Positions 48,104-64,000 of a DNA stretch of 64,000 nt are shown piece after piece. This DNA comes from Gemmata massiliana (GTDB lineage: Bacteria > Planctomycetota > Planctomycetia > Gemmatales > Gemmataceae), in the NCBI RefSeq assembly GCF_901538265.1, contig NZ_LR593886.1:7213738-7277737 (forward strand). Reading direction: 5' to 3'. Position 1 is the first letter of the stretch; every line of letters starts with the position of its first letter. The notes beneath the pieces were generated by a model. It saw only the letters and a list, made by a program, of their open reading frames with translations. It was not told the DNA's origin and did not search any database. The position numbers and the translations under genes were made by a program.

Positions 48104-49711
48104 TTACTCGCCTCCGGAACTGCTGGCGAGTGTCCCGTCGAGCGGTTCCAACCCCAATCCACGGAGCAATCGCTCAACCTGCGGCCACGCGACCGTTCCG
48201 CGAATTGCGCTTGCATCGGCTCCGGTCACATCCTTCACGAAGCGCACCAGGGCGTCCCGCAATTGGCGTTCTCCCGGCGTTAGCAGCGAATCGAACCGCT
48301 CCCCAACCAACAGGTGGGCCGCGTCCCGTGTTCGGGACACCAAGTAGTCGAGAAACACCTCAAGGCGCCGAGCCGCTTCGGGAACAGCAAAGTTTGCCAT
48401 TGTCTCGGGCGCATCGGCCATACGCACGCGCCGAATATCTTGGTCCCACAGCATTTCGGCCAATCCGCCCGCACCGAGTGATAACGCCGTTCCGAAGTGC
48501 CCGGGGGCGCGATGCTCACCGCGTAAGCGCCGCACCGCGTCCACGATGCGGTGGAAGTTGTCATCGGTCATCGAGAAACCGACGAACAGAACGTGTCGCG
48601 TAACAAGAAACGCCTGAACCATTCCGCTAAGGGCGGGGAGCTGTTCGTCGTAGCGCGTGTAACTGGAGCGAGTTAGAACTACTCGATCCGGGTCCGAGAG
48701 GCACCCGTGCATCTTCAGGAGCCAGCGCCGGGCATCGGGTCTGATCGCGCCAGGTAACACCGACAACCCGTCGGGATCGGACAGCGCCCAGGCGTCCTCG
48801 AACAGTTGGTCGTAATTGGTGGTGATCGCTTCGCGAACCGGAAGTGCGGCAAGTAGTGCGTGGGCAAGAGCATAGTGCCGGCGCGGGCCGAGTGCCGAAG
48901 CGACCGTTCGGCCGATAGAACCCCCACGTGCTTTGAGGCGCCGTTCGATCACGGTCGCCTGATCGAGTGCGTTGCGCAACTCCGCGAGTGCGGCACGCTC
49001 CTCGCGAGACATTTCTGCCCGAACCGCCAGTTCGTCGAGCAGTCCGCCCCAACTGGGAAGCCCGGCCGCGATGCTCACCCCCGCACCGAGGAAGAGCGCC
49101 AGTTCGCCCCGCAGAGCGTGTGCGGCTAGGCGCTGGGCTTCGGCCCTCAATTGTTCGGTGAGGTCCGTGGGCCAGTCCGCCCGGCGCACGCGCTCGGCTT
49201 GCGCTGCGGCGTGACTGGCGGAATCCCAACACACGAGCGCGACATCGAACTCCCGCTCACCGGGGAACGTCTGCGCGGTAAATGTTTCCAATTCTGGTAG
49301 AAGTGCCTGAACGATCTCCCCGGCCCGTTCCGCTCCACCGCCCTGCCCCGTGCCTACAACCGGTAGAGCGAGTAGCGAACGGGCACGGCCAAAGAGCGGA
49401 GGAAGGTCGTTCGTGGCGATCTCGGTCGCTGCGGCGTTGAGGAACTCGGCCGCGCCAGAAGTGTACCAGGACACCGGTTGCCCGCCGCGCCCGATCCAGC
49501 ACAACCACGGTTGCGGGCGGTTCGGCGCGGGAGCGATGAGCGGTTGCACGCGGCTCTGCCCATCGACAAACCGGCGCCCCTCGCGCGGGCCGGCGTAGTC
49601 CGGCAGGAACCACTCGTACCCGGGGCGAGCGCCACGACTACACGGAACGAGCCACGCATCGCAAGCGAGGCGCCGAACGTCGCCGCGAACGATGAACACG
49701 TGCCCCGGCAT
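48104..49711 (-). CDS. Macro-like + SIR2-like fusion protein (candidate NADase/defence effector)
   Basis: 535 aa from ATG 49711 (MPGHVFIVRGDVRRL), with GGAG seven bases upstream. Residues about 1-180 resemble a divergent macrodomain: VFIVRGDVRRLACDAWLVP (cf. GDITxxxVDAIV) and LALPVVGTGQGGG (phosphate-loop-like). Residues about 195-400 form a SIR2_2 domain: FLGAGVSIAAGLPSWGGL, ITTNYDQLFEDA (Asn299, Asp301), LLKMHGCLSD (His335) and VLFVGFSMTDDNF. A 130-residue helical C-terminal domain is unassigned. SIR2 domains of this type deplete NAD in phage defence (e.g. Thoeris ThsA, DSR); macrodomains bind ADP-ribose. The pairing in one chain suggests NAD/ADP-ribose signalling. It sits 1.7 kb outside the tRNA-Arg element. 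Confidence 0.75.
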   Translation of the reverse strand: MPGHVFIVRGDVRRLACDAWLVPCSRGARPGYEWFLPDYAGPREGRRFVDGQSRVQPLIAPAPNRPQPWLCWIGRGGQPVSWYTSGAAEFLNAAATEIATNDLPPLFGRARSLLALPVVGTGQGGGAERAGEIVQALLPELETFTAQTFPGEREFDVALVCWDSASHAAAQAERVRRADWPTDLTEQLRAEAQRLAAHALRGELALFLGAGVSIAAGLPSWGGLLDELAVRAEMSREERAALAELRNALDQATVIERRLKARGGSIGRTVASALGPRRHYALAHALLAALPVREAITTNYDQLFEDAWALSDPDGLSVLPGAIRPDARRWLLKMHGCLSDPDRVVLTRSSYTRYDEQLPALSGMVQAFLVTRHVLFVGFSMTDDNFHRIVDAVRRLRGEHRAPGHFGTALSLGAGGLAEMLWDQDIRRVRMADAPETMANFAVPEAARRLEVFLDYLVSRTRDAAHLLVGERFDSLLTPGERQLRDALVRFVKDVTGADASAIRGTVAWPQVERLLRGLGLEPLDGTLASSSGGE

Positions 49712-51254: not shown

Positions 51255-51420
51255 GCTGGGTGTTGTACGACGCCCGGGACCGACCGTATCGGTTCCAATG
51301 AGTACGGGGGCACGGCCATGAGTTGGTACAGAAATACTTAACCGGCTCGATTTCCGACAAGTAGTGCCGCTCGAACATCTGACGGATGTGAACAGTAGCA
51401 AGAACAATCAAAATTCCCGA

Positions 51421-51468
51421 GTACCTTCGGCGCGAATCGAACGCGCGCCCCCCCCGGTTTAGGAAACC
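51421..51468 (-). repeat. Left attachment-site copy (3' part of tRNA-Arg)
   Basis: 48 bp aligning with 62625-62670 (46 bp), with one substitution near the start, an A-to-C change and two extra C's in the C-run. It covers the tRNA from the anticodon loop to the 3' end and stops exactly at the anticodon arm (GGTTTAGGAAACC). Same orientation as the tRNA, as expected for attL/attR. Confidence 0.82.
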
Positions 51469-51657
51469 GGATCACCGAGTTAGAATTCGCTGACAATTCC
51501 AGCATTTCGACGGCATCGACTCAATCCGGAGCACCGGGAGCAGCAACCGACCCGGACCTCGCTCTCGTCGCCACGACAACTGAGTCACCGAAAGGACCTC
51601 GGTAACGCCCGCCAAGCGGGGCATTCGCGCGGAACGTAGTACACATCGGGAGCAAAA
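51469..51657. other. Short non-coding stretch at the left end of the element
   Basis: No gene. It ends with a good ribosome site (CGGGAGCAAAA) before the ATG at 51658. Confidence 0.4.
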
Positions 51658-52822
51658 ATGGGCTGGGAGTTGCGGCACGGTGGGCGTCGGTACCGGAACC
51701 GCCGGGTAAACGGGAAGCCGGTCAAGGAGTACCTCGGCGCCGACGACCGGTTCGGGCGGCTCAAACTCATCAAGGGCCGGTACGCCACCCACACCGTGTG
51801 CGGGATCCTCATGCACTCCAGCCTCGTCATCACGACCGACGGGCTCCCGCTCGGGCTGGCCGCGGTCAAGTTCTGGACTCGCAAGACGTTCAAGGGGACC
51901 AACGCCCTCCGCGGGAAAGTGAACGCGACCCGCATCCCGATCGAGCAGAAGGAGAGCGTCCGCTGGCTCGAGAACGTGAGCCACGCGACCGAGGAACTGG
52001 GCGATTCATCCCGGTGCGTCCACGTCGGGGACCGAGAGGCGGACATCTACGAACTGTTCTGTGCGGCCCACGACGCCCGGACCCACTTCCTGATCCGCAC
52101 GCGCGTCGATCGGTTCGCCGGACGAGGGAACACGACGGTGTCCGCGCGGATGGCCCGCGAGCCAGTTCGGGGTGAGCACGCGGTGGAAGTCCGGGACGAC
52201 CACGGGCGGGTCTCGACGGCCACCCTCCGGGTCCGGTCCTGTCGAATAACCGTCCACCCGCCGGTGGCCAAGCGGAAGCGGTACCCGTCGCTGTCCCTCA
52301 CGGTCCTCCACGCCGATGAGCCGGGGGCGCCCGCGGGGCGGGACGCGATCCACTGGCAGTTGCTCACCGACCTCCCGGTAGACGACCTGGCGTCCGCCGT
52401 CGAGAAATTGGACTGGTATGCGATGCGGTGGAAGATCGAGACATTTCACAAGGTCCTGAAGTCGGGCGGCCGGGCCGAAGAATCCCGGCTCCGGACGGCC
52501 GAGCGGCTGACCAACCTGTTGGCCGTCCTATGCGTCGTCGGGTGGCGGGTGTTCTGGCTCACCATGCTCAACCGGGCGGCCCCCCGACGAACCGGCCGAG
52601 ACAGCGTTCACCTCGGCCGAGGTCGGGGTTCTGGACCGGCTCACCGGGCGGTCCCCGACCCGGCGGACGGTGGCCCACTACGTCCTGGCGGTGGCGAAGT
52701 TGGGCGGGTACCTGGCACGCGCGAAAGATCCGCCACCGGGCAACGAGGTCATCTGGCGCGGCCTCTCCCGGCTCGCCGACATCAGCCTCGGGGCTGAACT
52801 CATGGACCAAAGTTGTGGGTAA
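51658..52822 (+). pseudogene. Chimeric, frameshifted IS4-like transposase
   Basis: The first ~27 codons (MGWELRHGGRRYRNRRVNGK...EYLG) match the start of a small planctomycete hypothetical family, not a transposase. From about DDRFGRLKLIKGRYATHTVCG onwards the sequence is an IS4-type transposase lacking its first catalytic Asp region: GILMHSSLVITTDGLPLGL, CVHVGDREADIYELF (second Asp) and YAMRWKIETFHKVLKSG (Glu). At a run of six C (52580-52585) the frame shifts by one; removing one C continues it in frame to MDQSCG and a TAA at 52820-52822 (387 codons). It is 5'-truncated, fused and frameshifted, so probably dead. Confidence 0.8.
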
Positions 52823-53194
52823 TCGAAAGCTTCGCCGGACGGATACGTTCTTCAAAACCGCGGGGTTGGCCGATGCCGTGACGGGAACACTCGGAACCCA
52901 GTTCCGGGACGCGGCGCGGATGTACGGGTACCTCGTGAACAGTTACGCGAACGGGTGGGCGCGATTCTGCGAGGTCGAGCAGGTGGACCCGAGCGCGTGC
53001 GAAACGGTGCACCGGGATGAGCAACGCTCGATCAGGCCATGAGTGAAGCGGCCGAGATCGCGTTCACGGAGGACGAAGCACGCGCGTTCACGCAGCGGGG
53101 AAACCTGGGCACACCCGCACACCTGAAGACAGCGGAATCGATCGGCGCCGGGCTCCGGGTGTTCTATCGATTTTGCCTCACTCAGTGGGAGTGA
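52823..53194 (+). pseudogene. Hypothetical gene remnant in two frames
   Basis: Two overlapping frames carry protein-like sequence: RKLRRTDTFFKTAGLADAVTG...NGWARFCEVEQVDPSACETVH (to a TGA at about 53042) and then MSEAAEIAFTEDEARAFTQ...AGLRVFYRFCLTQWE (ATG 53039 to TGA 53194). The second may be a separate 51-aa gene started by ATGA overlap, or the end of one frameshifted gene. No family is recognised. The start is lost, probably to the IS4-like insertion. Confidence 0.45.
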
Positions 53195-53423
53195 ATGGTT
53201 CGAACGCCGTTCGTGAGGCGCTTGTTCCGACCAGAACGCTTCGAGCCCGGACCACCGGGGAACGTCGCCGAACCAATTGACGCCCGAATCTCGGGGGCGC
53301 CAATGGAACGTTCGAGCCGCTGAAGTAATGTGGCCGGCTCTGGCGCTACGGCGCCCGGTGCCACTTCCGACAAACTCTATCCCCGGATCCTCGGGTCCGT
53401 TCCACCGACTCCACCGTCGGACC
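53195..53423. other. 229-bp intergenic stretch
   Basis: No gene or clear structure seen. Confidence 0.4.
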
Positions 53424-54494
53424 CTACCAATAGGCCACGTTGCTCGCACCACCTGAAGCGAACGTAATGTCCCCGAGGATCACCTCGCAGAACAGGCGGG
53501 AAGTGCCGGTGTCCGTCCAGTTCCCGCCCGCGCGGGTGCTCAGGGTGAAGTTCTGGCCCCACGCCAGCCCCTGCATGTCGCTGGCGGACGTCACGATGAA
53601 CCCCACCATCGTCTCGTTACTCGCGTCCGGGGTGCTCACGGCCACGCGGTACGTGTCACCGAAGTTCAGGGCGGGGAGGGGGGAATCATCGAACACGAAA
53701 TCCAGCATCGCGGTACTGGGATTGACGATCGAATCCGTGTCCAGGTCCACGCTCGCCAGGGCGGTGGTATCGCCCGCCCCGCCGCCCTGATAAAGGGTGC
53801 AGGTGAGAGTCTTCGCGGCGACGGTGGTGGCGAAGCAGAACCGGGCCCGCTTGATCGTGTAGGTCCCGCTGGCCCCCGAGAACACGCTGAACTTGGCCCC
53901 CGCTTCCGCGGTGGCGCCGGAGTTGATGTTCTGTGTCAACGCGCCGTTGATCGGGGTACCGTACGTCTTCGTCGCGGTCCGGTACCCGTAGAACGGGGTT
54001 CCGGCCGACCGCGTGTAAACCCCGCTCGCGCCCGTGGCCGCGTTGGGGTATTTCGTCGGGCCCCCGGTACCGCTGGTACAGGTGCCCACGACCAACATGT
54101 TGTTGCTCCCGTCGATCGTGCCCGACGAGTACTCGAGCACGATACACAGCTTCTCCCCGAGGCCCAGGGCGTAGGAGGAGGTGAGGGTGAGCCAGGTGAC
54201 CTGGTTGAGTGTGGTGGTGCCCCCGGCGAACGTATTGGAGGCGTTCCCGGACGCCTTAATCGTACCGTCCGGGTTGCCCGAAGCGTCCACACCCTGCAGG
54301 GAGATGCGGTACGTGGGAACGACGCCCGGGCCGCTCGTCCGCCGGATCGCGAGCGCGACGATCGGGTCCGTGGTCTCCGATTGGAAGAACCACGCCGCGG
54401 ACGCGGTGGCCGCGTTCATGCTCGCACTGGAAGCGGTCCCGATCCCGGCCGGGCAGAGCATCCCCATGCCCACGTTCATACCGTTCGCGTCCAC
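53424..54494 (-). CDS. Hypothetical beta-rich structural or surface protein
   Basis: 356 aa from GTG 54494 (MDANGMNVGMGMLCPAGIG), with a G-rich upstream site; the open frame continues upstream without a better start. Composition is Thr/Ser/Gly/Ala-rich with repeated beta-like segments (TYRISLQGVDASGNPDGTIKASG, KTLTCTLYQGGG, GDTYRVAVSTPDASNE, FCEVILGDITFASGG). It looks like a carbohydrate-binding-like or virion/appendage-type jelly-roll protein. No signal peptide. I recognise no family. It is cargo of the tRNA-Arg element and could be a tail-like or extracellular protein; this is speculative. Confidence 0.55.
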   Translation of the reverse strand: MDANGMNVGMGMLCPAGIGTASSASMNAATASAAWFFQSETTDPIVALAIRRTSGPGVVPTYRISLQGVDASGNPDGTIKASGNASNTFAGGTTTLNQVTWLTLTSSYALGLGEKLCIVLEYSSGTIDGSNNMLVVGTCTSGTGGPTKYPNAATGASGVYTRSAGTPFYGYRTATKTYGTPINGALTQNINSGATAEAGAKFSVFSGASGTYTIKRARFCFATTVAAKTLTCTLYQGGGAGDTTALASVDLDTDSIVNPSTAMLDFVFDDSPLPALNFGDTYRVAVSTPDASNETMVGFIVTSASDMQGLAWGQNFTLSTRAGGNWTDTGTSRLFCEVILGDITFASGGASNVAYW

Positions 54495-54840
54495 CCCGCA
54501 CCCCCTTAAAACGATCTTCGGGACATTGAAGAGTCGGTTCCGTGTCGAGCGCGGCCGCGTTCTGAATTCCGGCCGTCGGGACAGCCCGGCAGAGGATCTT
54601 TGACCAAAAGGCGCCCCAACAGATAGGGCGACTAACTGCTGGGGTAAACCTTCGAGAATCGGCGAGGGCCGCGGTGCAGATGCACCGCGATCGCCACGTC
54701 AATTCTGCCGTTCGTCGTTTTGCACGGGGCCGCGTTTAACGCCCTTTATCGCGCGACCGCGCGGGCAGGAGGCGCCTCCGATCGGGCACGGGGCCCTCAA
54801 TAGCCACGGGGTCCGACCCGCGGCCCGAGCCCTCTCCGGG
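54495..54840. other. 346-bp gap inside the element
   Basis: No supported gene. It separates the beta-rich protein gene from the glycosyltransferase-like gene, both on the minus strand. Confidence 0.45.
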
Positions 54841-55509
54841 TCAGGGTCCCTCGCGGTCGGTCCCGGGGGGCCGCACGAGGTGCTCGATGTACCGCTCGTG
54901 CGGGTTCCCGTGGGCCGGGTAGAACGCCCCCTGGCACGGCTCCGCGTCCTCGGCCACCAGGGACAGTCCCCGCATCCCGGGGGCCGAGAACAGCCACGAT
55001 TCGTAATAGAACCGGTCCGGGGACACCACCGGGATCGGGAGCCGGCGCACCCAGTCCCCGCGGGCCCACCAGAAGTTCCCCGCGAACATGCGCCCGTCCT
55101 TGCGACAGAACCCGATCGAGACGTACCGGTCCAGGGCCGCGACCCGACGGCGCCACGGGACCACGACCGCGGCCGTCATGGCCCAGCGCCACTTCGTGTA
55201 GTACAGGCCCTTGCCGGTCACGTTCTTCGTGTGGAAGTACAACACCCGCTCGTCCCCTCCGGCCCCGTCGCAGTGGGCCTTGAGCGCGGCCAGGGTCGGG
55301 TACTCGAACCGGTTGTGCGGGTGCCGGGTCACGTCCACCGGGAGCCCGAACGTGCCCGCCAGGGCCCGGAGCTCGAGCGCGTCGACCTCGGACCCGGTCA
55401 GGTGCGCGCGGACCGGCCCCGGGAATCCGGCCCGGACCAGGGCGTACAGCTGCTCGGCCGCGACGTCGTACCAGTTGTTCACCGCGTACACGTGCCAGAA
55501 CGCGATCAC
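54841..55509 (-). CDS. Putative glycosyltransferase-like protein
   Basis: 222 aa from GTG 55509 (MIAFWHVYAVNNWYDVAAEQL), with GGAGGG upstream. Features: a Rossmann-like start, RVLYFHTKNVTGKG and KWRWAMTAAVV, RYVSIGFCRKDGRMFAGNFWWARGDWVRRL, FYYESWLFSAPG, and a His/Pro-rich end (FYPAHGNPHERYIEHLV). The YFHTKG...W(R)..M and GNFWWAR tracts recall capsular-polysaccharide glycosyltransferases of unknown specificity. It is a passenger gene between IS remnants, and its 5' end abuts an IS66 fragment. Confidence 0.55.
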   Translation of the reverse strand: MIAFWHVYAVNNWYDVAAEQLYALVRAGFPGPVRAHLTGSEVDALELRALAGTFGLPVDVTRHPHNRFEYPTLAALKAHCDGAGGDERVLYFHTKNVTGKGLYYTKWRWAMTAAVVVPWRRRVAALDRYVSIGFCRKDGRMFAGNFWWARGDWVRRLPIPVVSPDRFYYESWLFSAPGMRGLSLVAEDAEPCQGAFYPAHGNPHERYIEHLVRPPGTDREGP

Positions 55510-55847
55510 CCCAGGGCCCTCCGGAACAGTCCGGCCAGGCGCGACCCGCCTCCGAGGAACTGGGCCCGGCCCTGTACACGTTCGCCGCAGTCGAGGGAGT
55601 CGAACCGACGAACGACGCGGCCGAGCGGGCGCTCCGCCACGCCGTCTGTTGGCGGAAGACCAGCTATGGGACCGACTCGCCTTCCGGCAGCCGGTTCGTC
55701 GAGCGGGTGCTCACCGTGATGGCGTCTTGCCGTCAGCAGGCCCGCGACGTTCTGGAATTCTTGACGGCCTGTTGCCGCGCCGCGAGGGACGGCACCGGGG
55801 CACCGTCGTTGCATCCGGACCCTGCCGTCCGCGCAGTGGCTGAGTAG
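55510..55847 (+). pseudogene. IS66-family transposase, C-terminal remnant
   Basis: An open frame without a start ends at TAG 55845-55847 and encodes a textbook IS66 TnpC C-terminus: LYTFAAVEGVEPTNDAAERALRH, WRKTSYGTDSPSGSRFVERVL and SCRQQARDVLEFLTACCRA. The N-terminal nine-tenths, including the catalytic Asp residues, is absent, so this is a deletion scar. Confidence 0.85.
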
Positions 55848-55864
55848 GAAGCGGAGGGGCACTC

Positions 55865-57075
55865 GTGACGACCGGGACAGAAATCCGGGCCAAGTATGAG
55901 CTGATCAAGCCCACGTGCCCGCCGGCCTCCACCGCCTCTGGGCAGCGGCTGAAGCGGCGACCATTGGGCGAGGAGGGGCCAAGCTGGTCTCGGCGGCCAC
56001 GGGCATCAGCCCCGCGCGCATCGCGGCCGGTATGGGGGTGCTGCGGGGCCGGGCGCCTCACCGGCGTGCCTCCACCGGACGGAAGCGCGGGGACCAGTTC
56101 CGGGAGGACCGAGACCCCACGCTCGTCCCCGACCTGGAGAAGTTGCTCGCGGATGAAGTCGCCGGGGATCCGATGACGGAACGGGTCTGGGTGCGGACCA
56201 GCGCGCGGAAACTGCGCGACACGCTCCAGGCGATGGGCCACCCGATCGGTCACTGCACGGTTCACCGGTTGCTCGGGAAGTTGGGGTTCACGTCGCGCGC
56301 CAACCAGAAGAGGCGCGGCGGGTCACAGCAGCCCGGTCGGGACGAGCAGTTCGAGCACATCGCGTCCCAGAGGAAGCGGTTCGGCGCGTCGGGGCTGCCG
56401 AGCATCAGCGTCGATACGAAGCAGAAGGTATTGATCGGGCCGTTCGCGCGGCCGGGGAAGACGTGGTGCAAGACACCCACGGAGGTCCACGGCTACGACT
56501 TCACGAGCCTGGCGGAGTACCGGGCCGTACCGTACGGCATCTACGATCTGCAGAGGAACGAGGGGCACGTCGCGGTCGGCATCTCGAACGACACGCCGGC
56601 GTTCGCGGTGCGGGCCATCGCGCGCTGGTGGGAGCAGGAGGGGTCTTCGGCCTTCGCCGGGGCAACGGAACTGCTGATCCTAGCCGACGGCGGCGGGGCT
56701 AACGGTTACCGGTGCCGGGCTTGGAAAGCTAACCTCCAGAATCAGGTGTGTGACCGATTCGGCGTCGCGGTGACGGTCTGCCATTACCCGCCGGGATGCT
56801 CGAAGTGGAACCCTGTCGAGCGCCGGCTGTTCAGCCAGATCAGTCTCAACTGGGCCGGGGAGCCGCTCAAGACTCTGGACCTGATGCTCGGGTACATCAG
56901 GGGTACCACGACGGCCACCGGTCTGAAGGTCAAAGCCCACCTGGACGACAGCCAGTATGAGAAGGGGCAGAAAGTCTCTGGGGAAGTTATGGATCGTCTC
57001 AACCTGATCTCACACCCGGTCCGCCCCGATTGGAACTACACCCTTCGCCCGCGACAGAATGGCGCCACTCAATAG
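55865..57075 (+). pseudogene. ISAzo13-family transposase with N-terminal frameshift
   Basis: The N-terminus (GTG 55865, TTGTEIRAKYELIKPT) lies in one frame; from about 55925 the rest is in the next frame (GLHRLWAAAEAATIGRGGA). Diagnostic ISAzo13 tracts: SISVDTKQKVLIGPFARPGKTW (first Asp), DFTSLAEYRAVPYGIYDL, ISNDTPAFAVRAIARWW, LLILADGGGANGYRCR (second Asp), VCHYPPGCSKWNPVERRLFS (Glu) and GYIRGTTTATGLKVKAHLD. All catalytic residues remain, so only the frameshift separates it from an intact transposase. An internal start at 55915 would give 386 aa without the N-terminal HTH. IS ends were not found. Confidence 0.82.
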
Positions 57076-57157
57076 CCCAACTCCGGGCGTGAACGGTTAC
57101 GAAGCGCCAGCTCTGGGTGGCCGCGTTCGAGACCGCGTCATTCGTTCCGCCGTCCGA

Positions 57158-57175
57158 TTGGTAATCGATTACCAA
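57158..57175. promoter_or_regulatory. 18-bp perfect palindrome (candidate operator)
   Basis: TTGGTAATCGATTACCAA is a perfect palindrome 235 bp upstream of the first AlpA-like start. Its right half, ATCGATTACC, recurs in the palindrome at 57297-57312. Confidence 0.5.
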
Positions 57176-57296
57176 CCACCGGTCCGCTCCGCGGAATTTT
57201 TTCGTCATCTTTTTTCGTACCCGCTTTCGCACATTTTCCCGGCGATTTCGCACCCGCTCGCGGTGCCGAGCGGCCTTTTTTCGCGCCCTCGGTCAT

Positions 57297-57312
57297 CGAT
57301 TACCGGTAACCG
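57297..57312. promoter_or_regulatory. 16-bp imperfect palindrome (second candidate operator)
   Basis: CGATTACCGGTAACCG matches its own reverse complement at 14/16 with a perfect TTACCGGTAA core. It lies about 98 bp upstream of the AlpA-like ATG. Confidence 0.45.
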
Positions 57313-57409
57313 GCACCGGCCCGCACGCAGCCCCAACCGGTGGCACGGCCCACCAATTCGGGACCGAGCGCTCTCGCGGGGGCCAGGGCCATTTGAGGGA
57401 TTTTGAGCC

Positions 57410-57664
57410 ATGACGCACGCGACCGACACGGGCACTGTGGGCACTTCGGACGGGGGTGAGGGGCTCCTCATCGACATCGGACAGTTGGCCCGGCTCCTGC
57501 GCCGCTCGGTGGCCTCGCTCGAGCGCGACCAGGTGGCCGGGCGCCTTCCGGCCCCGGTGTACGTGGGCGGTTCCCGGCGCTGGCGCCGGGCCGAGATCGG
57601 GGCCTGGGTCGAGGCCGGGTGCCCGGCGCGTGACCACTGGGACCAGATCCGCGCCGCGAAATAA
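57410..57664 (+). CDS. AlpA/excisionase-like helix-turn-helix protein 1
   Basis: 84 aa from ATG 57410. After a 20-residue acidic leader, the MerR/AlpA-type HTH reads LLIDIGQLARLLRRSVASLERDQVAGRLPAPVYVGGSRRWRRAEIGAWVEAGCP, the pattern 'L-x-R-S..TL-x-R-x-x-x-x-G-x-x-P-x-P-x-x-x-G-x-x-x-x-W-x-x-x-E-I-x-x-W'. AlpA and Xis proteins bind attachment or promoter DNA to steer excision and element gene expression. A paralogue follows 34 bp later. Confidence 0.75.
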   Translation: MTHATDTGTVGTSDGGEGLLIDIGQLARLLRRSVASLERDQVAGRLPAPVYVGGSRRWRRAEIGAWVEAGCPARDHWDQIRAAK

Positions 57665-57698
57665 CCGCACGATACCCACACCGAACCACGAGGGCACG

Positions 57699-57962
57699 AT
57701 GAACGAGCACATCACACCGCCCGCGCGCCCACGGCGCGGGCTCCGGCCCGGGTTGCTCCGGCGCGCGGGCGCGGCCCAGTTCTGCGGGGTCGGGGCCTCG
57801 ACCTGGGATCGGCTGTGCGCGGCCGGGTCGACCCCGGCCCCGATCCGCCTGGGCGGGTCCGTCGCGTGGTCCCGGCGCGAACTCGCCCGGTGGATCGACC
57901 ACGGGTGCCCCGCGCGCACCGAGTGGGAACCCATCTGGGGCGCACTCCGGCGAGCGAGCTGA
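57699..57962 (+). CDS. AlpA/excisionase-like helix-turn-helix protein 2
   Basis: 87 aa from ATG 57699, with GAGGG upstream; a longer in-frame ORF from 57456 overlaps the first HTH gene and was rejected. The HTH is AAQFCGVGASTWDRLCAAGSTPAPIRLGGSVAWSRRELARWIDHGCPARTEW, clearly paralogous to the preceding protein (shared W...ELARWIDHGCPAR and the closing W-x-x-I). Arg/Pro-rich N-terminus. Probable Xis/AlpA-type DNA-binding protein; tandem pairs can divide the roles of excision factor and promoter regulator. Confidence 0.72.
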   Translation: MNEHITPPARPRRGLRPGLLRRAGAAQFCGVGASTWDRLCAAGSTPAPIRLGGSVAWSRRELARWIDHGCPARTEWEPIWGALRRAS

Positions 57963-58044
57963 TCCCGAACCGTTCGACCCGCACGAAACCAACGCGGGCC
58001 GGGTGCCCGCCACGACACCCCGGCCCGCTACATAGGTGAAAACT

Positions 58045-60527
58045 ATGGATAGTGTACCCATTGATCGGGGCATGGGAAAGCCTGGAACCCCGGTCCTGCT
58101 CCCCCGGCACCTCGCCGACCTGCGCGCGTCGGGGCTGTCCGACTTGCAGATCCGGGCCGCGGGCGTGTACTCGGAACCGGAACCGGGAAAGGTCGCCGCA
58201 CTCCTCGGGTGGAAGCACCCGGCCCCCGCGCTCGGCCCGTGCCTGTGTTTCCCTTTCCTCGACCCGACAGGGGTTCCGCTCGGGCACGTGATGGTCAAAC
58301 CGGACCACCCGCGCCAGAAGAACGAGAAGGCGATCAAGTACGAGTCTCCGCTCGGGAAACCGCTCCGGGCCTACTTCCCGCCCGGCACGCGCGCCGCGCT
58401 CACCGACCCTTCGATCCCGCTCCTGGTGACGGAAGGAATGAAGAAGGCGCTCAAGGCGGACCAGGACGGGTTCCCGTGCGTCGGGCTGGCCGGGGTGTAC
58501 GGGTGGTGCCAGAAGCGAACCACCGGCCCTGACGGGCGGAAAACTGGGGCGCGGGAACTGATTCCGGATCTCGGCGCGATCGCGTGGCGCGGGCGCGCGG
58601 TCACGATCGCGTTCGACTCGGACCTGGCGACCAACCCGGACGTGGCCCGGGCCGAGCGGCACCTCGCCGAAGCCCTGACCCGAGCCGGCGCGATCGTCCG
58701 GGTGGTACGGCTCCCGGGCGCCCCGAACGGGGCGAAGGTTGGGCTCGATGACTTCCTGGTCGCGAATACGCCCGACGAGCTGCGCGCGCTGATCTATGCG
58801 GCCCGTGCCCCGGGCGCATCCCCAGAGCCGAAAGACGAGGGCACGAAACCGCCGAGTGCGGCCGACGTGCTGACCGGGATCGGGCTGGAGTTCGAGTTGT
58901 GGCACGACCCGACCCAGAGCGCGTTCGCGAGCGCCGGGCCGCACTCCCACGCGGTGCGATCCAAGGGGTTTCGGCACCTGCTGGTCCACACGTACCGGAA
59001 CCGCACGGGCAAGGTGCCCAACGCCGAGGCCCTGTCCGCGGCCCTGGCCGGGATCGAGGCCGCGGCCCTGTTCGACGGCCCCGAGCGCACCGCCCACGTG
59101 CGGGTCGCGGGGCACGAAGGGCGCGTGTACCTGCACCTCGCCAACGACGCCGGAACCGTGATCGAGATCGACGGGGACGGGTGGCGCGCGTGCCCGGCCC
59201 CGCCGGTCCGGTTCCGCAAGCCCGCCGGGATGCTCCCCTACCTGTGCCCGAACCCGGGGGCTCGTTGGGCGACCTGCTCACGTTCCTCAACGTGCCGGAC
59301 GAGAACGGGTTCGCGCTGGTGCTCGCGTGGCTCGCCGGGTGCTTCCGGCCCGACGGCCCGTTCCCAACCCTGGTGCTCCTCGGGGAACAGGGGAGCGCCA
59401 AGACCACGACCGGGCGCGTGGTCAAGCGCCTGATCGACCCGAGCGCGGCTCCGGTCCGGTCCGAGCCCAGGGAGGCCCGCGACCTGATGATCCACGCGCG
59501 CAACGCCTGGGTGCTCGGGTTCGACAACCTGTCCGGGCTCCCCGGGTGGCTCAGCGACGCCCTGTGCCGGCTCGCGACCGGGGGCGGGTTCTCCACACGC
59601 GAACTTTACACGAACGACGACGAGACGATTTTCGACGCCAAGCGCCCGCTGGTAGTCAACGGGATCGAGGACTTCATCACCCGCGCGGACTTGTTGGAGC
59701 GGTCCGTATTGCTCCGGCACCCGCCGATCCCCGAGGACAAGCGGCGCCCGGAATCGGAGTTCTGGGCCGCGTTCGAGAACGCTCACCCGAAACTGCTCGG
59801 TGCGCTATTGGACCGGGTTTCGAGCGGGTTGCGGGAACTGCCCCGGGTGAAACTGGACCGGTTGCCGCGCATGGCCGACTTCGCGCTGTTCGCGGTCGCG
59901 TGCGAGCGCGGGGCCGGGGAACCGGACCGGTTCCTCGGGGCCTATGCGGACAACCAGGCGGGGGCACACGAGCAGGCCCTTGATGCGTCCCCGGTTCCCG
60001 CCGCGCTCGTGGCCCTGATGGACGGGCGCTCCTGGTGGGAAGGAAGTCCGGCCGAGTTGTTCGCGGAGTTGTCCCGGTTCGCGCCAATGCCGGTTCCGAA
60101 GGACTGGCCCAAGAAGCCGAACGTGCTGACCAACAAGTTGCGCCGGCTCGCCCCGAACCTGCGCCGGGTCCACGGGTTGCACATCGAGGACGGGCGCACG
60201 AACGGGGGCGCGTCGGGCGGGAAGCGACCCCGGTTCGTCCGCATCACCCGGGCTCCCGAAAGTGGGCGGGAAACACCGTCCCCCGCGTCCCCCATCGACC
60301 CGGCCCGCGCGGGCGCCAGTGATTCGCAGTGTTCGGGCGGGGACGATCCCGGGGGACGGTACTCGCCCTCCGACACCGACACCGTCCCCGTGGACCGTCC
60401 CCGCGAGAACGCCCGAGATTACAGCCCTTCACACGTCTACGGGGACGAGGGGGACGGTCTTTCCCGCCCACTCTCGGGGCGCGCTACCGGAACAACGATA
60501 CCCCACATGAGGCGCGCTGAACCATGA
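58045..60527 (+). pseudogene. DUF3854/TOPRIM + P-loop primase-helicase-like protein, split by one-base frameshift
   Basis: Start ATG 58045, with AGGTG upstream. Part 1 holds DUF3854/TOPRIM-like motifs: LLVTEGMKKALKADQ (Glu, about residue 130), GLAGVYGWCQKR, VTIAFDSDLATNPDV (Asp pair, about 191) and VGLDDFLV. Part 2, in another frame after the G-run at 59256-59260, is an SF3/D5-like ATPase: TLVLLGEQGSAKTTTGRVVKRL (Walker A), NAWVLGFDNLSGLPGWLSD (Walker B-like) and ADLLERSVLLRHPPI. Adding one G restores a single frame of exactly 828 codons, ending MRRAEP. Such fusions replicate satellites and plasmid-like elements. It may be a true mutation or a homopolymer sequencing error. Confidence 0.78.
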
Positions 60528-60983
60528 GCGCGACCACTACCGCGCGCACGGCCGCACCCTGCTCGAACGACTCGGAGCGTGCGCGCCGGCATCGGATGGG
60601 ATCATACTCCTGTGCGTCGAAGGCAACACTCGCGGGGACCGGATCAGCTCGACGGCCCGCATCGACGCGCCCGAACTGTTCACCCCGCCCGGATCGTTAG
60701 GTTCTTCCCGGCGCCGGCGCGGATGACGCTGTACCGGGAACAGTGGGGGCTAGAGACACAGTAACGGTCCCCGTGCGGCCCGAAACAAACTGTGTCCCCG
60801 AGCCCGAGTGTTCCCCGTGCGGCGCTCGTTGCTCGGCCCTGCGGAAGGACCCGCGAACCGCTACACACCTGGCGCGCACCGTGCGCGTCGGGTATACTCC
60901 AACAACCTTTGGTCGGCGCGACCGGGTCGCGACCTGAGAACCGCACCCACCGCGCTGACCGCTCTCAGAAAGGTGCTCGCCAC
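60528..60983. other. 456-bp stretch with a possible gene remnant, upstream of the integrase
   Basis: From about 60510 to the TGA at 60724-60726 the plus strand carries a protein-like frame without a start codon (HYRAHGRTLLERLG, GIILLCVEGNTRGD, RIDAPELFTPP), probably a broken hypothetical gene. The rest (60727-60983) is non-coding; GGTATACT at about 60893 could be part of an integrase promoter. Confidence 0.4.
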
Positions 60984-62687
60984 ATGGCCTCGCTGTTCAA
61001 GCCCACCCGCCCATACCCACTGCCCACAAATCCGGAGATCGTCGAGAAGGACGGTAAGCCGCACGTGCGCCTGAAGGAGCGCGGCAAGTCCGTGCTCTAC
61101 CCGGTGTCCGAGAACGGCAAGCAGTACCTCAAACCGTCCGCGAAGTGGGCCGCGGACGTGCGGTTCGCGGACGGCCGGCGCAAACGCGTGCGGTTCAGCC
61201 CGAACCGCGACGCCTCCGCCGTCATGCTCGCCGACTTGTTGAAGAAGATCGAGAACGAAAAGGCTGGAGTGGTCGATCGCTTTGGCGATCACCGTAAACG
61301 CCCCCTTAGCGAGCACCTCAATGATTGGCTGGGCAGTCTCCGAGCGAATGGGCGTGACACCGAGTACGTCACTTTAAAGGCCAGTCGCGTGCGGGCCGTA
61401 TTTGAAGGATGTAAGTGGGTATTTCCGGGCGATATGATTGCCGATCGTTTGGAGACCTTTCTCGCCGATTCTCGCGCGAATCGCCCCATTCTTCCAGCCA
61501 TCCCGTCCAAAACGGAATGGTTTACCGTCAGTGAGGTAGGCCGTTTACTTGGTGACGTGGGTGCGCAGGCTGTTGCGGCTCTCGTGCGCCGGCACCGGTT
61601 GTCAGCGCAAGGCAACGGTCGAGCACGAAGATTCCCTCTGGAAACGGTAAAATCCCTCCGAGAATTAAGGAACCACGGGTGCTCTTCCCAGACCTCGAAT
61701 CACTGGCTCCAGACGGTTCGGCAGTTCGCCCGCTGGATGGTCGCCAATTCCCGCTTCGACCGTGACCCATTTACACGGTTGAAGCCAATGAACGTTAATT
61801 TGGACCTGCGCCGACGGCGCGGCGAATTGTCCCCGAACGAATTCCACTCGCTGCTCGCGGCCGCGAGCAGAAGTGTGACCGAAGTTCGGGGATTGACCGG
61901 AGCCGATCGCGCGATGCTCTACCGCGTTGCCGTCGGGACGGGGCTTCGCGCCAGTGAACTCGCTGCCTTGGTTCCCTCTTTCTTCAGTCTTGATGCGTCA
62001 CCGCCCGTTGTGATTCTTCCTGCTGAGTACACGAAGAACCGCAAGGGGGCGACGCAACCACTATCGGCCGCGTTAGTTGCTGATTTGCGAGTTTATCTTG
62101 GCGACCGCCCCGGTAAAACCGCCGTGTGGCCGGGGAATTGGTTCGAGAAAGCCGCCGACATGCTCCGGATCGACCTCGCTGCAGCCGGTGTGCCTGTCGA
62201 GATAGACGGACCAGAAGGGATCGAGACACGCGATTTTCACGCGCTGCGTTCGGTGTACATCTCAAACGTCATCCGCGCGGGAGCGGATTTAAAGCAAGTG
62301 ATGACTCTCGCTCGTCACTCGGACCCCAAATTGACCGCGAGTCGGTACGCTCGCACCCGGTTGCACGATCTCGGCAGTGTGGTAGACAAGCTCCCCGAAT
62401 CGACCGTTCAGCCGCCGTTGCCAACCGTTTTGCGGCTAACTGGAACGGATGCAGTCGGAACTATTCCCGAACAATCCGGAGCAGCAGAAGGCGGTAGCCG
62501 GCAGTTACGATTGAGAACAGATGAAGATTTACCTCACTGTTCGGTGGGAACGCAACAGAGCATCAACTCCCTGGATTTACAGGGAATTGGTGCCAATCGA
62601 GAACATTTGAGTGTGAACGGGGAAGTACCCTCGGCGCGAATCGAACGCGCGACCCCCGGTTTAGGAAACCAGTGCTCTATCCCCTGA
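60984..62687 (+). CDS. int: Tyrosine recombinase/integrase with internal HTH insert; 3' end antisense to tRNA-Arg
   Basis: 567 aa from ATG 60984 (MASLFKPTRPYPLPTNPEIV), with AAAGGTG upstream. Arm/core-binding region about 20-170. A MerR/AlpA-like HTH insert at about 178-232 (WFTVSEVGRLLGDVGAQAVAALVRR...ARRFPLETVKSL) precedes the rest of the core-binding helices. Catalytic residues are complete: Arg322 (TGLRASE), His419 and Arg422 (HALRSVY), His445 (LARHSDPK) and Tyr455 (SRYAR). The last ~20 codons (PSARIERATPGLGNQ) are read antisense through the tRNA-Arg gene, so the gene end lies inside the attachment site. It probably integrates and excises the element. Confidence 0.9.
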   Translation: MASLFKPTRPYPLPTNPEIVEKDGKPHVRLKERGKSVLYPVSENGKQYLKPSAKWAADVRFADGRRKRVRFSPNRDASAVMLADLLKKIENEKAGVVDRFGDHRKRPLSEHLNDWLGSLRANGRDTEYVTLKASRVRAVFEGCKWVFPGDMIADRLETFLADSRANRPILPAIPSKTEWFTVSEVGRLLGDVGAQAVAALVRRHRLSAQGNGRARRFPLETVKSLRELRNHGCSSQTSNHWLQTVRQFARWMVANSRFDRDPFTRLKPMNVNLDLRRRRGELSPNEFHSLLAAASRSVTEVRGLTGADRAMLYRVAVGTGLRASELAALVPSFFSLDASPPVVILPAEYTKNRKGATQPLSAALVADLRVYLGDRPGKTAVWPGNWFEKAADMLRIDLAAAGVPVEIDGPEGIETRDFHALRSVYISNVIRAGADLKQVMTLARHSDPKLTASRYARTRLHDLGSVVDKLPESTVQPPLPTVLRLTGTDAVGTIPEQSGAAEGGSRQLRLRTDEDLPHCSVGTQQSINSLDLQGIGANREHLSVNGEVPSARIERATPGLGNQCSIP

Positions 62688-62698
62688 GCTACGAGGGC
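62626..62698 (-). tRNA. tRNA-Arg (anticodon CCU)
   Basis: 73 nt on the minus strand. Acceptor GCCCTCG pairs with CGAGGGT (G-U at the first pair), discriminator A. D-arm GCTC...GAGC; anticodon arm CTGGT-TTCCTAA-ACCGG with anticodon CCT; T-arm GCGCG-TTCGATT-CGCGC. No encoded CCA. The gene is intact although it is the integration site of the element to its 3' side. Confidence 0.95.
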
Positions 62699-62851: not shown

Positions 62852-64000
62852 ATGCCCGCAGAACATCCTATCCGATCGGGAAAACCTAACAAGCCGTACC
62901 CATCGTTCCCGCTTTATGCCCACGTCACCGGTCGTTGGGCGAAGAAGATTCGTGGAAAACTGCACTACTTCGGCCCTTGGGACGACCCCGATGGCGCCCT
63001 CAAGAAGTACCTCGAGCAAAAGGACGCTCTGCACGACGGCCGAACGCCGCGGGTGGCGTCAGAAGGCGTCACGGTGAAGTTGCTCTGCAACGCCTACCTC
63101 AACCACAAGAAGGAGAAATTGGACCGCGGGGAACTCTCACCACGCTCCTGGACGTGCTACCGCAACACCGCTGAACTCGTCGTCGCCAAATTCGGGAAGG
63201 GGCGTCTCGTCTCCGACCTGCGGCCCGAGGACTTCACCTCGCTCCGAACCATGATGTCAAAGAAGTGGGGACCGGTCCGGGTGCGGAACTACGTCCAGCA
63301 GATCCGAGGCGTGTTCAAGTACGGGTACGATTCGGAGCTGCTCGCAGTCCCGATGCGATTCGGCCCGGGCTTCGATCGACCGTCGAAGAAGATTCTTCGC
63401 CTCGAGCGCGCGAAGAAGGGGCCGCAGATGTTCGAGGCCGCCGAGGTGCGGGCGCTCGTAAACGGGTCCACGGTGACGCGCAAGGGTGAGCCAGTGCTTG
63501 TCACCCCGACCGTCCCGATGAAGGCGATGATTCTCCTGGGCGTGAACTGCGGGTTCGGGAACGCCGATTGTGGCACGCTGCCGATTGCCGCTCTCGATCT
63601 CAAAAGTGGTTGGATGAACTACCCGCGCCCGAAAACGGGAATCCCCCGACGTTGTCCCCTGTGGCCGGAAACCGTCGCGGCGTTGCAAGACGTCCTGACC
63701 GCACGTCGGGAGCCTCTCGACTCAAAAGACGCGGACCTGGTGTTCATTACCGCCACGGGAAGGAGCTGGCACAAGGACATCGACGATACGCCCGTGTCGA
63801 AAGAGATGCGGAAGTTACTCGACGCGCTCCGCATCGAAGGCAAGCGAAACTTCTACGCGCTGCGGCACACGTTCGAGACGATCGGCGGGGAAGCGAAGGA
63901 CCAGGTCGCGGTGGACCACATCATGGGGCACGCGCGCGACGACATGGCCAGTGTGTACCGCGAGCGCATCAGCGACGAGCGACTCAAGGCCGTCAGCGAC
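62852..64000 (+). CDS. Second tyrosine recombinase (planctomycete type; 3' end beyond window)
   Basis: 383 codons from ATG 62852 (MPAEHPIRSGKPNKPYPSF), open to the right edge. N-terminal arm domain with WAKKIRGKLHYFGPWDDPDGAL; core-binding TVKLLCNAYLNHKKEKLDRGELS and VRNYVQQIRGVFKYGYDSEL. Catalytic part: NCGFGNADCGTLP (residues 232-242) replaces the usual TGLRxxE, so the box-I Arg is not at its normal place; YALRHTFETIGG (Arg338/His339), IMGHARDDM (His360) and SVYRERI (Tyr369). This family is common in planctomycetes and unlike the first integrase. It begins 153 bp beyond the tRNA-Arg 5' end and may belong to another element extending rightwards. Confidence 0.88.
   Translation, partial: MPAEHPIRSGKPNKPYPSFPLYAHVTGRWAKKIRGKLHYFGPWDDPDGALKKYLEQKDALHDGRTPRVASEGVTVKLLCNAYLNHKKEKLDRGELSPRSWTCYRNTAELVVAKFGKGRLVSDLRPEDFTSLRTMMSKKWGPVRVRNYVQQIRGVFKYGYDSELLAVPMRFGPGFDRPSKKILRLERAKKGPQMFEAAEVRALVNGSTVTRKGEPVLVTPTVPMKAMILLGVNCGFGNADCGTLPIAALDLKSGWMNYPRPKTGIPRRCPLWPETVAALQDVLTARREPLDSKDADLVFITATGRSWHKDIDDTPVSKEMRKLLDALRIEGKRNFYALRHTFETIGGEAKDQVAVDHIMGHARDDMASVYRERISDERLKAVSD

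Follow-up and report, generated by a model that had tools for sequence, protein, structure and literature searches.

We analysed a 64,000-nucleotide stretch of the Gemmata massiliana genome (the window; contig NZ_LR593886.1, positions 7213738-7277737 of the 10.1-Mb genome G000) and find that a mobile element integrated there in a tRNA-Arg(CCU) gene belongs to a family of tRNA-integrating cargo islands in which integration probably exchanges the C-terminal tail of the element's own tyrosine integrase for an end read antisense through the host tRNA. A preliminary description of the same DNA had bracketed the element by the tRNA gene and a direct repeat of its 3′ part, with an integrase between them, and both statements hold: the two copies of the attachment (att) core are 92% identical over 49 aligned positions (E 7e-12, search inside the window), and the integrase matches Pfam Phage_integrase (E 9.5e-12). 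A chance repeat was considered as the origin of the att copies and rejected. To that description we add a severed integrase tail beside the distal core, a remnant of a conserved left-end gene, L1, and a second element that adjoins this tRNA gene on its 5′ side.

The evidence for a tail exchange comes from the position of the att core relative to the integrase open reading frame (ORF). In the integrated state the integrase ORF crosses the core and stops inside or beyond the tRNA gene, 14-134 residues from the core start and mostly within 60 (16 in-frame elements). When the element ends are joined at the core in silico, the ORF runs on for approximately 45-65 codons past the core in the window element and in five relatives described below (E1, E2, E3, E4 and E9), ending in a conserved tail with the pattern PDL..LVAAWP.LPEPIR.AILALV that in E1 reads DPDLALVATAWPALPDPIRRAILALV. 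Computed joins are in frame and open for 16 of 17 testable elements, compared with 81 of 272 mismatched joins in which each integrase was joined to the distal arms of other elements (binomial P 5e-8 for at least 16 of 17 at the mismatched-join rate), and for 12 of 13 when four elements with short or diverged repeats are set aside (G013_999, G057_2573, G028_1560 and G047_1197). Seven of the 17 were found independently of the tail, namely the window element and those recovered through the family genes DUF3854, U1 or L1; all seven carry a distal tail and six join in frame (P 0.004). Codon positions 1, 2 and 3 show 0.39, 0.26 and 0.58 differences per site among 66 distinct stop-free tails, which reads as a coding pattern in the tail frame. 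Judged from these sequence comparisons, the att core lies within the integrase reading frame. In all ten integrases scanned (one of them, from G013_999, scoring under the Pfam cut-off), 56-99 residues separate the end of the integrase domain from the core, and in the window too the domain ends upstream of the core; because the catalytic domain precedes the core, the integrase would be altered, not destroyed, on integration.

Several observations weigh against this interpretation. No circular form was seen, the circle coming from computed joining, and frame agreement is displayed solely by joined elements, not across all tails; one joined element, E11, whose integrase is broken, falls out of frame. 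No uninterrupted natural integrase-core-tail ORF occurs among 70 tail loci, and no contiguous integrase-tail form turned up when viral, phage and plasmid collections were searched by pattern and by tblastn. An integrase match lies within 1.5 kb upstream at 16 of the 70 loci; seven of these contain only the core peptide, and the other nine, which were read, comprise five in frame with 1-5 stops between integrase piece and tail and four out of frame (one partly masked). These nine loci are probably old tandem junctions. The presence of a T-loop antisense motif within 200 nt upstream of 46 of 70 tail places read, versus 26 of 192 control windows, itself favours the exchange, but its phase relative to the tail is distributed 20:7:19 with no single fixed frame, so that different lineages would read the tRNA in different frames. 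Finally, an in-frame start codon lies within 30 codons before 42 of 69 tails, and a separately translated tail is therefore conceivable.

That last point, together with the missing natural ORF and the tendency of frames to stay open in GC-rich DNA, speaks for a tail that is a separate small gene or a chance neighbour, with the open frame through the core being incidental. We consider this improbable: the joins are in frame in 16 of 17 cases versus 30% of mismatched joins, the start is ATG in only 12 of the 69 tails, and the frame of the tRNA-derived peptide, although it varies by lineage, matches that of the element's own integrase in the joined elements.

Tail peptides match at 84 places in 35 of 59 genomes, the window's own included (E up to 0.01), with 78 of the 84 matches in open frames shorter than 300 aa, and a profile search across the phylum recovered the tail in 33 of the 149 genomes sampled. 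Tail peptides had no tblastn match among plasmids at E up to 0.1 and 10, nor among phages at E up to 10, and viral contigs yielded two tail-like ORFs (L255 and L285), neither attached to a tyrosine integrase. We extended 22 tail places to stretches of 7 to 40 kb, taking the repeat with the best E-value where one place had several, and obtained 14 with a repeat pair and 8 without a repeat within reach. Four repeat-bearing places entered by an ORF shorter than 150 aa (113, 71, 33 and 28 aa) were left out of the count; in 10 of 10 others, the ORF of at least 150 aa that enters the proximal copy joins the tail in frame. The proximal copy overlaps a tRNA gene in eight of these ten, the exceptions being G013_999 (23 bp) and G057_2573 (19 bp). 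G028_1560 and G047_1197 have repeats of no more than 71-78% identity that extend into the integrase. The same design accompanies other contents: G046_2102, for example, has a terminase large subunit and G056_157 a tape-measure-like protein. On balance we slightly favour a phylum-wide class in Planctomycetota, in which tRNA-targeting integrases whose gene spans the phage attachment site (attP) exchange their tail at each integration and form a DNA-encoded direction switch common to cargo islands, satellite-like and prophage-like elements.

Individual tail loci show further arrangements. A 21.7-kb element at tRNA-Val (G058_858; L249, L250) carries a type I-G CRISPR-Cas set with matches to Cas1-Cas4, Cas2, Cas3, Cas5/6 and Cas7, Cas8 being outside the search, and apparent repeat arrays were seen by eye. 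At another locus (L144, G031:C14) the tail ends an ORF whose upstream part resembles, by eye, the C-terminal region of a serine recombinase, which suggests a module common to both recombinase classes. The tail also directly follows, by eye, the 3′ part of an aminotransferase-like ORF (L136, G017:C9), perhaps marking a protein gene whose end served as the integration site.

If the tail is exchanged as proposed, the islands would excise as a circle using the integrase (Int) and AlpA-like excisionases, and the circle would be copied by the plasmid-like primase-helicase. In the circle the integrase gene would read through the core into the conserved tail to yield one long Int; integration would cut the tail off and leave it at the far end of the element, and the integrated Int would end in residues read antisense through the tRNA with its catalytic domain intact. 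C-terminal residues of tyrosine recombinases tune activity between protomers, and integration and excision here most likely use different Int forms. As a tentative model, which we hold with less confidence than the exchange itself, tail-bearing Int may favour integration from the circle and the trimmed chromosomal Int may work only with AlpA-type partners, in excision, whereby integration itself would set the direction of the next reaction. An opposite role is possible by analogy with the mycobacteriophage repressor system, with the tail restraining or destabilising Int. Control of the choice to integrate or excise is a central question of mobile DNA, and a gene re-spliced by its own reaction would, if true, be a very simple answer. 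The AlpA-like proteins are placed in excision because AlpA of the phage-inducible chromosomal minimalist islands (PICMI) serves excision in the available text of PMC10803314. The severed tail also offers a sequence tag for locating element ends in Planctomycetota genomes, and would delimit islands with defence systems, including the type I-G CRISPR-Cas set and an Hma system.

Related genomes place the window element in a family. Of 59 genomes searched, 16 hold matches to the DUF3854 protein, counting the genome of the window itself; 20 stretches with such matches were fetched, the closest 7 extended and 4 delimited (E1-E4), and two more elements were found via U1 and L1 searches (E9 and E11). 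These six relatives occupy six different tRNA genes, with repeats of 52-70 bp and lengths of 19-51 kb: E1 in G012 (tRNA-Arg(CCU), 47.1 kb, 52-bp repeat, integrase 85% identical to the window's), E2 in G012 (tRNA-Ser(GCU), 23.9 kb, 67-bp repeat), E3 in G006 (tRNA-Arg(UCG), 20.9 kb, 59-bp repeat), E4 in G001 (tRNA-SeC, 18.7 kb, 70-bp repeat, 87% identical), E9 in G016 (tRNA-Ser(CGA), 51.2 kb, 63-bp repeat) and E11 in G002 (tRNA-Arg(UCU), 18.9 kb, 60-bp repeat). A convincing tRNA repeat was not found for E5, E6, E7, E8, E10 or E12. The order in E1 and E2 is distal att, L1, L2 (followed by L3 in E1), cargo, U1, U2, AlpA-like 1, AlpA-like 2, replication gene, U0, integrase and tRNA, and L1 starts 190-253 bp inward of the distal att in five of six delimited L1-bearing elements, the window's included (620 bp in E3). 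Gene content varies: E3 has one AlpA-like gene, E4 lacks L1, E9 has no DUF3854 match and an interrupted integrase, and E11 retains only L1 and an integrase remnant. The relatives' genes were called with a simple codon-usage script, so gene counts in them are approximate. U1, U2, L1, L2 and L3 gave no informative family, U1 matching a PHROG of unknown function and L2 giving weak Pfam matches below cut-off.

The closest members have both ends in common and unrelated cargo between them (chemotaxis, RHS and pilin-like genes). E1 carries CheB, CheR, CheW-repeat and methyl-accepting genes; E4 (L028/L049, G001:C5) has matches to the defence proteins HmaA, HmaB and HmaC; E9 encodes a 3784-aa RHS-repeat protein with a ribonuclease match at its C-terminal end; and E2 and E11 carry pilin-like DUF1559 genes (one E2 protein by scan, the others by eye). 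By gene order and content, tRNA-integrating islands with cargo form a real family in Gemmata-like planctomycetes, and the window element is one of its decayed copies. The preliminary description had called this copy decayed and proposed a search for intact ones; its replication gene is indeed broken, and better preserved members with att repeats are present in the genus.

Decay is evident along the window element (Table 1), which is a degraded copy with a frameshifted replication gene, a fragment of U0 and 39 codons of L1; its integrase is still open. Searches with the conserved genes U1, U2, L2 and L3 found nothing in the window. Part of the conserved helix that lies between two ALVAT repeats is missing from the severed tail, which is in frame when joined via the tRNA-side core and out of frame via the actual distal core, which holds 2 extra nt; such damage is expected for a fragment no longer used. 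The frameshift was placed by comparison with an 828-aa relative from G012. Just outside the element, at 48104-49711 (-), the window encodes a SIR2/ThsA-like protein (PADLOC E 1e-32).

Table 1. Features of the integrated element, in window coordinates.
Feature	Position	Strand	Remarks
Distal att core, copy of the tRNA-Arg(CCU) 3′ part	51420..51468	.	2 extra nt relative to the tRNA-side copy
Severed C-terminal integrase tail	51471..51605	+	ITELEFAD...GAPGAATDPDLALVATTTESPKGPR, then stop
L1 remnant, first 39 codons of the family left-end gene	51658..51768	+	86% identical; then fused to transposase-like sequence
Transposase-like sequence interrupting L1	51769..52797	+	DDE_Tnp_1, under Pfam cut-off
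Cargo ORF without family match	53424..54494	-	
Cargo ORF without family match	54841..55509	-	
ISAzo13-type transposase	55915..57075	+	PF07592, E 1e-108
AlpA-like helix-turn-helix gene 1, candidate excisionase/regulator	57410..57664	+	
AlpA-like helix-turn-helix gene 2	57699..57962	+	39-43% identity to gene 1 over the matched part
Replication gene, DUF3854 and P-loop helicase-like	58045..60482	+	Frameshift near 59235-59259; 828-aa homologues in G012
U0 remnant, small family gene between replication gene and integrase in relatives	60586..60687	+	
Tyrosine integrase, open ORF	60984..62687	+	Catalytic domain ~61827-62357; codons from 62624 antisense through the tRNA gene
tRNA-side att core	62624..62670	.	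3′ part of tRNA-Arg(CCU)
tRNA-Arg(CCU), integration site	62625-62698	-	Rfam: 62626-62698

The preliminary description had termed the element satellite-like on the basis of its integrase, tandem AlpA-like helix-turn-helix (HTH) genes and a DUF3854/P-loop replication gene. Those genes are largely borne out: DUF3854 matches with E 5.8e-23 in Pfam and is the sole Pfam match of the replication gene in both the window and G012, and both AlpA-like genes match PHROG 66, 'excisionase and transcriptional regulator' (E 8.6e-7 and 1.5e-6), whereas their scores against Pfam HTH_17 (20.1 and 18.8 bits) fall below the cut-off of 27. Predicted structures were too poor for use (mean pLDDT, the predicted local distance difference test score, 45.8 for the replication protein and 53.0 for U1). 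In the 20 listed of 167 matching plasmid records, the match to the 828-aa replication protein covers its helicase half, the best among those listed being 42% identical and from an 18-kb Methylobacterium plasmid. Phage matches comprise 11 records, nine to the DUF3854 half at 27-32% identity and two, from one phage, to the helicase half at 33%. By these matches the family's replication gene looks plasmid-like.

What stands of the satellite-like label is a mobile element that sits in a tRNA gene and brings its own replication gene; the satellite nature of the window's subfamily does not follow. A phage satellite would be an island induced and packaged by a helper phage, like PICMI and the phage-inducible chromosomal islands (PICI), and integrase, AlpA and primase are the mandatory PICMI gene set in the available text of PMC10803314. 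Two observations keep the idea alive. An 8.9-kb element of the same genus at tRNA-Arg(ACG) (G016_8582, L215:170-9056) carries AlpA-like, primase and DNA methylase genes and a weak terminase-small-subunit match (E 2e-4), and this layout, close to known satellites, makes it a possible minimal satellite; on viral contig L171, a DUF3854 gene that is 54% identical over 18-260 accompanies an HTH gene and, judged by eye, one resembling a terminase gene. Against this, the delimited members of the window's family are 19-51 kb long with bulky cargo, no capsid or packaging family appears among the selected proteins scanned from E1, E2, E3, E4 and E9, the helicase half of the replication gene finds its nearest relatives on plasmids, as judged from the matches listed, and the four replication-gene relatives on viral contigs match only in part at 35-54% identity. 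We therefore regard a satellite as unlikely, though the best placed of the other origins.

The plasmid-like replication gene also fits an integrative mobilisable element, moved by the conjugation machinery of another element, and many mobilisable elements carry few transfer genes. This origin is very doubtful, as no relaxase or transfer family was found among the proteins scanned, which covered part of the cargo and did not extend to a search for an origin of transfer (oriT). In agreement with the preliminary description, no capsid, portal, terminase or conjugation family was detected among the window-element ORFs scanned (nine by Pfam, seven of them also by PHROG). A remnant of an ordinary prophage was rejected as hardly credible: neither these ORFs nor the selected proteins of the relatives contain head, tail or packaging genes, and the closest relative, with the same tRNA and the 85% identical integrase, is a 47-kb island whose scanned genes are for chemotaxis, leaving in its favour the terminase and tape-measure-like genes in tail-sharing elements of other families.

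As checks on its reading, the preliminary description had looked to insertion polymorphism at tRNA-Arg(CCU) and to comparison with an empty site. Among ten sites compared, the 3′ side of this tRNA is occupied by a family element in G000 and G012, and the same other genes adjoin it in G007 and G016; a lack of insertion polymorphism, which that description took as a refutation, is thus not what these sites show. On the right outer flank, G000 and G012 have three genes in common, in matching order, past the second, 5′-side element; this makes the site orthologous between the two. Left outer flanks differ between species, so that a clean two-sided empty site is missing; none was demonstrable at tRNA-Arg(CCU) or tRNA-Ser(GCU), with no two-sided synteny between species, and a tRNA-Arg within approximately 1.5 kb of the left-flank HAD-hydrolase orthologues was absent in 11 of 11 related loci.

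The second integrase begins just beyond the 5′ side of tRNA-Arg(CCU) (window 62852-64000, continuing to G000:C1:7315333), and a 39-bp copy of the tRNA 5′ half lies 39 kb away. The arrangement is also present in G012, G013 and G016, with lengths of 15.8-49.6 kb, so that one tRNA-Arg(CCU) hosts two kinds of element, one per side. Integration at the 5′ half of a tRNA is unusual. In two other genomes tRNA-Arg(CCU) is split near the anticodon by ~240-290 bp (L124, G010:C225:5571-5891; L123, G003:C1316:13424-13794), perhaps by an intron; Rfam at its gathering threshold reported no intron family at these splits.

Parts of this design recur in known systems. PICMI likewise have integrase, AlpA and primase as core genes, AlpA here being below the Pfam cut-off; as far as the available text of PMC10803314 goes, the six-gene PICMI prototype of Vibrionaceae is located next to fis, and the model used to search for PICMI relies on primases of the DUF3987/DUF5906 type, in contrast to the tRNA genes, Gemmata-like hosts, large cargo and DUF3854 found here. 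Tycheposons, in a second-hand account (PMC10872708, in part), are also tRNA-bordered elements of 4-200 kb with a tyrosine recombinase and cargo; the likeness is one of description, and that account places them in other phyla and, in the part available, mentions no exchanged integrase tail. In mycobacteriophage BPs, integration-dependent immunity resembles the islands in having an attP core that matches a host tRNA gene inside a coding gene, and in the loss of a C-terminal protein piece on integration; in the accessible portions of PMC4557955 and PMC9262239 it is the repressor gene that is cut, the integrase having its own C-terminal tag, whereas here the integrase itself would be cut. No bacterial integrase with a tail exchanged by integration was found in the open-licence literature, covered mostly as titles and the starts of abstracts. 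Another parallel is the archaeal SSV-type 'suicidal' integrases, in which the recombination site also lies within the integrase gene and integration splits it, as computed joining indicates here. According to the available text of a 2021 review (PMC8371274), such self-splitting integrases are exclusively archaeal, belong to PF16795 and leave two halves called inactive pseudogenes; the integrases described here match PF00589, with PF16795 not among their Pfam matches, and appear to keep the catalytic domain whole before the core and exchange only the C-terminal tail. Exchanged-tail integrases are perhaps the first bacterial counterpart of the archaeal enzymes, and would weaken the published statement that self-disrupting integrases are found only in archaea.

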